Below the pieces are notes generated by a model that saw nothing but the letters and a program-made list of their open reading frames with translations, ran no database searches and had not been told where the DNA came from. This document shows positions 2,277-6,527 of a DNA stretch of 37,629 nt, piece after piece. Numbering within the stretch: position 1 is the stretch's first letter; the number at the start of each line of letters is the position of its first letter. The stretch is from the IMG/VR virus record IMGVR_UViG_3300032284_001602, positions 1-37,629 of that record; one strand, given 5' to 3'. Source of the stretch: a virus. The translations under genes were made by a program, and so were the position numbers.

Positions 2277-3101
2277 ATGAGCGGCAAAAAACTGATTACA
2301 CTCCAACAGGCAATCGCCGTGCGCGATGCCATCAAACCCGGCCTTGTCAAAGGCGTCGGGAAACCTGTCCCCGGCCAGATGTGTGTCGAGGCCGCTGTCT
2401 GCTACGCGCTGGGGCAGCCTCACGGCGATGATCCCGAATGCGTGGCCCCATCTGTGCGCGCTTTCAAGATCGCACTGAATGATTCCGACTGGCCTTCGGA
2501 ACAGGCCCGCGCTGACGGGCTTATGGAGATCGGCATTGCCCAGCTTGGGACGCGTGGGGAGATTGACGAAAAGGAGTTCGCCAAGAAACTGGCGGAGCTG
2601 ACGATTCGACGGATTCTTCCGATTTCGCTGCGCGCCTTGGCTGCGATTCCGTTCTTTGCTGGTGAGCACGCAGAGAAGCTGAATGCGTGCGCTGACTTTT
2701 GCGAAAAGGAAGGAAGTGAGGCGGCGGCGAGGTCGGCGGCGAGGTCGGCGGAGTCGGCGGCGAGGTCGGCGGCGTGGTCGGCGGAGTCGGCGGCGGAATC
2801 GGCGGAGGCGGCGGCGAGGTCGGCGGAGTCGGCGAGGTCGGCGGCGAGGTCGGCGGAGGCGGCGGCGAGGTCGGCGAGGTCGGCGGCGAGGTCGGCGGAG
2901 GCGGCGGCGAGGTCGGCGGAGGCGGCGGCGTGGTCGGCGGAGTCGGCGGCGTGGTCGGCGTGGTCGGCGGCGTGGTCGGCGGAGGCGGAAAAGAAGCACG
3001 GCATTCTTAAGCTGGCTGCATCCATCGGCGCTGAAGCCCTCCGTCATGTCAAGGCGCGTGGAGTTGAGCTTCTCGACGAGATCACCAAGGAGGGGCTATG
3101 A
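2277..3101 (+). CDS. Conserved phage-type protein with C-terminal Ala-Ser-Arg/Glu/Trp low-complexity repeat
   Basis: This is a 274-residue protein. The first ~140 residues contain GQMCVEAAVCYALGQPHGDD, then PECVAPSVRAFKIALND and LGTRG. This matches the layout of a family frequent in phage and bacterial genomes (MCVxEAVAYxxGxPxSDxPxCVxPVxxAFxxxxND...LVGTRG), of unknown function. Residues ~148-240 are a tract of A-A-R-S, A-E-S and A-W-S units, followed by a short ordinary tail. The start at 2277 follows a 32-base gap with no clear Shine-Dalgarno sequence. The stop overlaps the next gene by ATGA. The family match is from memory; the repeat is seen directly. Confidence 0.75.
   Translation: MSGKKLITLQQAIAVRDAIKPGLVKGVGKPVPGQMCVEAAVCYALGQPHGDDPECVAPSVRAFKIALNDSDWPSEQARADGLMEIGIAQLGTRGEIDEKEFAKKLAELTIRRILPISLRALAAIPFFAGEHAEKLNACADFCEKEGSEAAARSAARSAESAARSAAWSAESAAESAEAAARSAESARSAARSAEAAARSARSAARSAEAAARSAEAAAWSAESAAWSAWSAAWSAEAEKKHGILKLAASIGAEALRHVKARGVELLDEITKEGL
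2721..2988 (+). repeat. GC-rich codon-phased low-complexity repeat tract
   Basis: About 270 bases are built from GCG, GCG-AGG-TCG, GCG-GAG-TCG and GCG-TGG-TCG codon blocks in irregular order (12-base core GCGGCGAGGTCG). The tract contains almost no T except within TCG/TGG and has no stop codon in five of the six reading frames, which creates several long spurious ORFs. The units stay in multiples of three, so length changes would leave the host gene in frame. It has no spacers and is not a CRISPR array. Confidence 0.9.
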
Positions 3102-5175: not shown

Positions 5176-5949
5176 ATGAGCGCAAAAAATAAACAAATTC
5201 ATTGCACAAAGGACTATTCAATGTTCCTTCAGGATGAAACAAATCGCGATGTCAGGACCAACAAGAAACTGCTGAATTCCATGCAAAAGCATGGCTTTCT
5301 TCCAGAGCATCCACTGGTGGTGGTGAGCACTGAAGGAAAAAAGTTCAAGGTCCGGGATGGAGGGCACCGGCTGGTAGTGGCCAAGGAATTGAAAATTCCG
5401 GTGCATTACGTGGTGTCCGATAATGATGAGATTGAAATCTCATTCATCAACGATACGCAGCGTTCTTGGTCCCGTGCTGACTTTGTAAGCAGCTACGTCC
5501 GTCAAGGGAACAAGCACTTCATTGAACTTGCAAAGTTTTGCGACCAGCACGGAATCGCGCCGGGGATCGCCGCAAAGCTGCTGGGCGGGGACAGCCGGCA
5601 GATCAAGGATGGAACCTTCATTGGTTGCCAATTCACCTACGCTTTGGAAGTGCTGAGGGTCGCCGCCTGCGCGGGCCAGCACGTATCATGGAGCAAATGC
5701 TCTCATTTCCTTGGGGCAATCCATATGGTCCTGAAATACTCCTCCGCCAACATTAATACGCTCTGTGACCGTATTTCAACCAATGGCGGCTTGCTGAAGC
5801 AGCAGGCGAAGACGAGCGCGTTCATTGAAATGCTGGAGACCATCTACAATCATCGCACCCGTGATTTGCTACCGATCCGATGCCAGATCGAAACGGCCCG
5901 TCGGGAGCTTTCCGCAGCCTGCATGTCCAAAAACAGGGCAACGAAATGA
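5176..5949 (+). CDS. ParB-like protein (ParB/Srx-type N-terminal domain)
   Basis: This 257-residue protein shows the ParB N-terminal pattern: a helix ending GFL, a PLVV strand, then FKVRDGGHRLVVAKELKIPV, with D61-G-G-H-R65 as the conserved nucleotide-pocket-like motif. The middle carries helices that could form a DNA-binding domain (FCDQHGIAPGIAAKLLGG). ParB-family proteins bind palindromic parS sites and act in DNA partition or regulation, and phage relatives also act as regulators or nucleases. The region is less GC-rich than its surroundings. It overlaps the next gene by ATGA, and that gene contains an 18-bp perfect palindrome. Whether this protein has CTPase or nuclease activity cannot be told from sequence alone. 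Confidence 0.7.
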   Translation: MSAKNKQIHCTKDYSMFLQDETNRDVRTNKKLLNSMQKHGFLPEHPLVVVSTEGKKFKVRDGGHRLVVAKELKIPVHYVVSDNDEIEISFINDTQRSWSRADFVSSYVRQGNKHFIELAKFCDQHGIAPGIAAKLLGGDSRQIKDGTFIGCQFTYALEVLRVAACAGQHVSWSKCSHFLGAIHMVLKYSSANINTLCDRISTNGGLLKQQAKTSAFIEMLETIYNHRTRDLLPIRCQIETARRELSAACMSKNRATK

Positions 5950-6527
5950 GTCCTACAATCTTAACTGGAACGGAGGCGAAGCGCCTCGAATCGCTGGAGG
6001 CGTGCATCCGCCGGGGGCAGAAAACCTTCGTGGAGATCGGGCTGGCATTGGAGACCATTCGGGACGAAAAGCTCTACCGTTCGGATTTCTCGACGTTTCA
6101 GGACTACTGCAAGGAAAAGTGGGGTTGGGATCGGCAGCGGGCAATTCAGCTCATAAATGCTTCCGCTGTGGTGAAGTCGCTTCCCGCCAATGTAAACAAT
6201 TGTTTACAAACCGAAAGCCAAGCCCGCGAGCTGTCCAAGGTTGAACCCACTAAGCGCGATGAAGTTCTGGCCAAGGCTGCGCAGAGCGGAAGCGTGACGG
6301 CGAAGAGCATCAAAGCGGCGGCATCTGTGTCTGGCCCCAAGCCGGAGACTGAGGCTGTGCCAACTACTTCCGCTGAATTCGCAACCGCCGCCGGCCAGTC
6401 CGGCAATCCCTATGATACGCGCATCTATCAGCTCGTAAACGACATTGCTGATGAGCAGGATGAAAGTGTAAAATCAGCCGCAATCACGTTACTGGAAAAG
6501 CAAGTCGCTTGGCTGAAGGGAAATTAA
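5946..6527 (+). CDS. Phage/plasmid-type DNA-associated hypothetical protein carrying an internal palindrome
   Basis: The start is ATG 5946, overlapping the ParB-like stop; the product is 193 residues. The N-terminal ~75 residues (RGQKTFVEIGLALETIRDEK, F-Q-D-Y-C-K-E-K-W-G-W, then R-A-I-Q-L-I-N-A-S) match a family I know from phages and plasmids, often beside ParB or recombination genes. The family's function is not established. Residues 82-88 (NVNNCLQ) are encoded by a perfect 18-bp palindrome. The C-terminal part is Ala/Ser-rich and ends in a helix. Position next to a ParB-like gene suggests a role in DNA handling; this is inference. Confidence 0.65.
   Translation: MSPTILTGTEAKRLESLEACIRRGQKTFVEIGLALETIRDEKLYRSDFSTFQDYCKEKWGWDRQRAIQLINASAVVKSLPANVNNCLQTESQARELSKVEPTKRDEVLAKAAQSGSVTAKSIKAAASVSGPKPETEAVPTTSAEFATAAGQSGNPYDTRIYQLVNDIADEQDESVKSAAITLLEKQVAWLKGN
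6191..6208. promoter_or_regulatory. 18-bp perfect intragenic palindrome, possible parS-like or operator site
   Basis: TGTAAACAATTGTTTACA reads identically on both strands. It is AT-rich (14 of 18) inside a GC-rich gene and uses codons unusual for this window (GTA, AAT, TGT, TTA), so the DNA rather than only the protein seems to be under selection. It lies 242 bases downstream of the ParB-like gene's stop. The length and symmetry fit a dimeric protein's binding site. The ligand is unknown; ParB-like or ribbon-helix-helix/XRE proteins encoded nearby are candidates. Confidence 0.55.

Follow-up and report, generated by a model that had tools for sequence, protein, structure and literature searches.

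The window considered here, a viral record analysed over its full length of 37,629 bases, raises the question of why a gene for a DNA-binding protein should carry a long perfect palindrome inside its coding sequence, and of what might recognize it. The 18-bp palindrome TGTAAACAATTGTTTACA (positions 6191-6208, halves TGTAAACAA and TTGTTTACA), proposed here as a parS-like site for the protein of the same gene, lies within P0001 (5946-6527, + strand, ATG at 5946 and stop at 6527), whose 193-aa product is assigned from its model and structural matches to the ParB/KorB type of DNA-binding protein, without a CTPase domain. Residues 82-88 (NVNNCLQ) of this protein are encoded by the palindrome. The gene upstream (P0002; 5176-5949, + strand) overlaps P0001 by 4 bases and is ParB-like (phrog_12305, E 2.1e-25). 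Both a perfect 18-bp palindrome within coding sequence and a ParB-like preceding gene had been claimed in an earlier note on this locus, and both claims held. The scan for further copies suggested in the same note was run on the whole genome and returned a single copy, with no second one in the 37,629-base record even when 3 mismatches were allowed.

The palindrome is the longest in the window, the next longest measuring 14 bp, and a perfect palindrome occurs in 2 of 768 synonymous versions of the window peptide. Palindromes of at least 18 bp were nonetheless present in 55 of 300 dinucleotide-preserving random windows of equal length, so that the lone palindrome is weak evidence and proves nothing by itself; this frequency is the point in favour of a rival explanation in which the palindrome is a matter of chance, or else arose as a by-product, whether of peptide conservation or of a hairpin in the mRNA. 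It is the comparison of homologues, and not the single palindrome, that raises the observation far above chance. When 2.9 million viral contigs were scanned, the exact 18-mer was matched twice. In one contig (L003) it sits at the corresponding position of a homologue whose protein is 33-40% identical, and there too it encodes NVNNCLQ. The other match (L002:1563-1580) is probably fortuitous, the surrounding sequence being unrelated and no listed gene covering it; it starts 4 bases past a protease-like gene and ahead of a capsid-like gene.

Homologues could not be recovered with the window protein by itself: tblastn gave no match in the phage collection, and viral contigs scanned with the single protein yielded no relative. 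They were reached via an alignment of closer relatives, two other alignments being too diverse for scanning. The set of 139 unique homologues combines the viral and genome contig scans with plasmid cases, copies removed, and its sampling was steered by conserved peptides; it spans phages, plasmids, Cyanobacteria, Chloroflexota, Bacteroidota, Verrucomicrobiota, Actinomycetota and others. A 95-nt test region past the recognition helix (the linker) was compared with regions of equal size upstream and downstream. Of the 139 homologues, 103 had in the linker an even 18-bp palindrome in which 8 or all 9 pairs matched (68 of them perfect), as against 3 of 138 upstream and 0 of 139 downstream controls under the same criterion. 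With 19-bp forms, which have a central base, included, 119 of 139 genes qualify, or ~85% of the relatives examined. Synonymous recoding leads one to expect 15.6 genes matching in 8 or more of the 9 pairs and 1.7 with a perfect palindrome; the observed numbers were 118 and 80 of 138. At this position, more distant plasmid homologues have perfect palindromes of other sequence, namely TGTCGGAAATTTCCGACA in both Spirosoma and Emticicia and TGTGCGCCATGGCGCACA in Tolypothrix. Among the homologues the palindromes occur in several codon phases. Because the palindrome sequences differ, the codon phase varies and the recoding expectation is far exceeded, the constraint acts on the DNA and not on the peptide. 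Homologues fetched afterwards carried the site in 15 of 30 cases, against 2 of 30 and 3 of 30 in the controls; the lower share in this fresh set is perhaps due to its distant members.

Chance and a conserved peptide are thus contradicted by the control regions, the synonymous recoding, the fresh homologues and the varying codon phase, and can be all but discounted. The earlier note had suggested that a parS-like site or operator lay hidden in the coding DNA and was kept for its function as DNA. This is strongly supported, with the choice between centromere and operator unsettled, and the outcome that would have refuted it, homologues encoding the same peptide with freely varying codons, was checked for and not met. 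Its further suggestion that the peptide itself is conserved because of the DNA site failed, as peptides, palindromes and codon phases all differ while palindromicity at this place is kept. About 20 homologues have no recognizable palindrome, and a search near them for relocated sites found none of relevance. A cyanobacterial chromosomal family of ~340-376 aa (L192-L195) shares the domain (E ~1e-14); no palindrome was found in its linker.

The AlphaFold2 model of the 193-aa protein (pLDDT 87) predicts a ParB/KorB DNA-binding fold without the N-terminal CTPase domain. In the secondary structure of the model, the helix-turn-helix (6096-6179, + strand) consists of a helix at residues 51-59 and a recognition helix at 63-78, and the palindrome-coded residues come after the latter. 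Structural matches by VIA-align were obtained to Spo0J (Z 10.8, rmsd 2.1 over 111 residues), ParB-parS (Z 10.3), Noc-NBS (Z 9.8), KorB (Z 7.3) and SopB (Z 6.4), and the DNA-binding domain fold is the same as that of the ParB/Spo0J-parS, Noc-NBS and KorB systems. No N-terminal ParB/Srx CTP-binding domain is present: the chain starts at the helix-turn-helix and aligns only to Spo0J residues 100-214. The lack of this domain, together with the usual absence of ParA, sets the family apart from canonical ParB, Noc and KorB. Foldseek E-values for the model are weak (only ~0.02-0.05), a search of solved structures by sequence gave no meaningful match, and no NCBIfam match was obtained at E 0.01. The C-terminal part comprises two helices (155-192) without an informative structural match. 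Raf1, the Rubisco accumulation factor, scores as high as Spo0J and ParB; model residues 12-133 resemble its alpha domain (Z 10.7, ~19% identity), and Raf1 may possibly be derived from a ParB-type domain.

In a split-ParB arrangement P0002 would supply the CTPase part, but a related neighbour is found near only a few of the homologues; the idea was set aside, although it is not excluded. P0002 remains a possible, unproven partner of the 193-aa protein.

Five residues at the start of the recognition helix, R63, Q64, R65, I67 and Q68 (6132-6149, + strand; alignment columns 56, 57, 58, 60 and 61), covary with half-site bases 2, 4, 6, 3 and 6, respectively. Covariation was computed over 77 protein clusters with 300 shuffles per pair, none of which reached the observed values. 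Mutual information (MI) was highest for column 57 and base 4 (1.42 vs 0.42 bits after shuffling), where R and N occur with G, followed by column 61 and base 6 (1.10 vs 0.20; R with C, Q and K mostly with A, E with G), column 60 and base 3 (1.04 vs 0.20; Y and H with T, N and R mostly with G, D mostly with A) and column 56 and base 2 (0.51 vs 0.14; R and K mostly with G). A nearest-relative test on 56 disjoint pairs (504 tests), which lessens shared ancestry without removing it, showed residue and base changing together for column 57 and base 4 (p 7e-10), column 61 and base 6 (p 9e-9), column 58 and base 6 (p 1e-6) and column 60 and base 3 (p 2e-6), with far weaker signals for columns outside the recognition helix (best 1e-4). 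Two homologues that are 98% identical outside the helix (L149 and L134) pair KTQANR with TGACACC and KRHANR with TGGGACC, and near-identical pairs of this kind speak against pure phylogeny as the source of the covariation. When the code was applied to the fresh homologues, 13 of 15, 14 of 15 and 12 of 13 base calls were correct (39 of 43 in total).

An independent point of agreement, not used in finding the covariation, comes from ParB, in which R173 bonds the G of the parS TGT and N178, five residues on, contacts parS (PMC7383237). R63, paired with the G at base 2, and Q68 reproduce this spacing; the equivalence rests on motif spacing and not on a printed structural alignment. The family palindromes further resemble parS in their TGT ends, with an arginine reading the G of TGT (PMC7383237), and differ from canonical parS in their length of 18-19 bp, their highly variable sequence and their fixed place within the gene.

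As helix and site change together, a recognition code can be read directly from sequence. Recognition of the palindrome through this helix is supported by covariation only, without binding data, and on the same inferential basis it is very likely that the palindrome is bound by the product of the gene in which it lies. The earlier note had named the upstream ParB-like protein or an XRE protein as candidate binders; this is corrected here, the recognition-helix covariation making the product of the same gene the best candidate. In the proposed mechanism, the operator or centromere of a ParB/KorB-type helix-turn-helix protein would sit just past its own recognition-helix code, two subunits would presumably bind the palindrome, one per half-site (a dimer stoichiometry that is inferred), and the residues at the helix start would read the bases, R63 base 2, Q64 base 4, I67 base 3 and Q68 base 6.

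The hairpin version of the by-product explanation was also rejected. The central pair and the second pair from the centre, both of which would fall in the loop of a hairpin, match in 84% and 98% of sites, respectively, and an RNA hairpin is ruled out by this central-pair conservation and by the covariation of bases with DNA-reading residues.

In pairs of relatives whose specificity has changed, nucleotide divergence is highest around the recognition helix and the palindrome. For L137 and L138, identity is 93-100% in the flanks and falls to 37-63% around these two elements, and a similar trend is seen in L011/L021, L149/L134 and L072/L066. This joint peak of divergence suggests that helix and site were replaced together, so that the protein stays matched to its site. 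Since helix and target fall within ~80 bp, they can be regarded as one exchangeable cassette, proposed in the window to span 6132-6208 (+ strand) on account of the joint replacement seen in relatives, and their joint inheritance or exchange would allow a replicon to switch its private address in one step, self-consistently.

What the site does for its replicon is less certain. The computation shows the site, its positional conservation, the covariation, the fold and the cassette behaviour; a centromere-like or maintenance role, plasmid stability included, is an inference that could as easily prove wrong as right. Under this proposal the palindrome would be a nucleation site marking the replicon, acting as a centromere with ParA where parA is present, as on Bacteroidota plasmids, and in this phage it would nucleate a ParA-less, replicon-specific complex maintaining or controlling the early region, where the neighbours of the 193-aa gene are the ParB-like gene, RecT and an exonuclease. 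A parA gene lies directly upstream in six loci (L004, L005, L097, L098, L105 and L031), one of them a viral contig and the rest Bacteroidota replicons. The five Bacteroidota cases have the site once per whole plasmid or genome searched, and their proteins share an N-terminal extension of ~35-40 residues; among phage contigs the site is single in 6 of 7.

A functional precedent, by analogy and without sequence comparison, is provided by ParZ of Borrelia burgdorferi, a centromere-binding protein that binds its own coding region (Takacs et al. 2022, PMC9712426); the relevant sections of that paper describe no binding motif, family-wide in-gene palindrome or helix-site covariation. Borrelia PF49 (NF033725, borfam_49) shows weak similarity in the same domain to 12 of 88 members (best E 2.6e-5), far under the curated cut-off of 60 bits, with the window protein itself unmatched. 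The PF49 of cp26, encoded beside ParA, weakly matches the family profile, and no palindrome was found in its gene. ParA partner, ParB fold, PF49 similarity and ParZ precedent favour centromere-like nucleation to a degree that leaves the balance undecided. Against it, parA adjoins only 6 of the 139 genes, a ParA profile detected none in the window, and a single 18-bp site is small for a centromere. A pure partition role would also leave unexplained the fusion of about one-fifth of members to DNA methyltransferases (Dam, N6_N4, MT-A70; e.g., L016 and L017 of alignment A6).

Because no parA was found in the window, autoregulation and replication control are not excluded. As an autoregulatory operator, a possible alternative, the site would let a dimer on its own gene lower expression as a transcription roadblock, without any partition role. 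This accords with the occurrence of the site once or nearly so, inside the gene, in whole-checked phages and plasmids, and with Oscillatoriales cyanobacteria holding extra copies in tandem arrays (repeat length ~92-96 bp) that precede the gene. Against it, the site lies deep in the gene and away from the promoter in nearly all members, the ParA partner in some members and the ParB fold indicate nucleation, and similar cyanobacterial arrays also adjoin dnaJ, so that these arrays may be dispersed repeats.

An origin within the initiator's own gene would follow the layout of lambda, in which ori lies within the O gene and its inverted-repeat sites are bound by O dimers (PMC5043065); the N-terminal domain would bind the site and the C-terminal part would recruit the replisome. 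The shared placement of binding sites inside the gene and the early-region position beside RecT and the exonuclease are in its favour. It appears unlikely, given that the record has a single site where lambda has several iterons and a replication function, that no A+T-rich opening region is seen adjoining the site, and that some members are plasmid-borne with ParA and the neighbours are not consistently helicases or loaders. Self-marking for modification, in which the domain would guide a methyltransferase to the element's own DNA, draws on matches among 88 members to Dam (9), N6_N4_Mtase (4), MT-A70 (3) and DUF5131 (1, the L006 fusion); it is very unlikely, as most members, the window protein included, keep the palindrome without a methyltransferase.

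No description of the in-gene site of this family was found in the open-licence literature searched. We lean, with reservation, towards the bolder reading that these ParB-type proteins make up a widespread family, hitherto undescribed, whose members are self-addressed by a cassette of helix and target that is exchanged as a unit. If so, the cassettes would provide phages and plasmids with private centromeres or incompatibility tags, able to diversify through swaps made in a single step, and the single case of ParZ would be extended to a broad family. Experiments are normally needed to learn which sequence a DNA-binding protein targets; as each gene here apparently carries its own target, specificity would become predictable simultaneously for a large number of proteins from phages and plasmids, and the hundreds of proteins naturally paired with their sites would allow a DNA-recognition code for the ParB fold to be derived by sequence analysis alone. 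Near-identical pairs would let the evolution of a new specificity be watched, the location of unknown centromeres on ParA-bearing Bacteroidota plasmids is suggested, and the pairs are a possible source of orthogonal protein-site combinations for DNA labelling in cells.

Some further observations concern the Oscillatoriales loci and the window itself. In L048, L050, L054, L055, L058, L060, L072 and others, the homologues adjoin transaldolase and/or glucose-6-phosphate dehydrogenase genes. The upstream tandem arrays, present at several of these loci, in some cases have G at base 4, as the helix predicts, with C in the in-gene site. The same palindrome occurs beside dnaJ in L237:2673-3080 (G001:C115; tandem 73-bp units) and in L238, and the site may possibly be carried by dispersed repeats in Microcoleus-like genomes as well. 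Elsewhere in the window, positions 2277-3101 encode a protein in which AARSAESAA-like repeats follow one another over a long tract; this stretch is also open in other frames on both strands.
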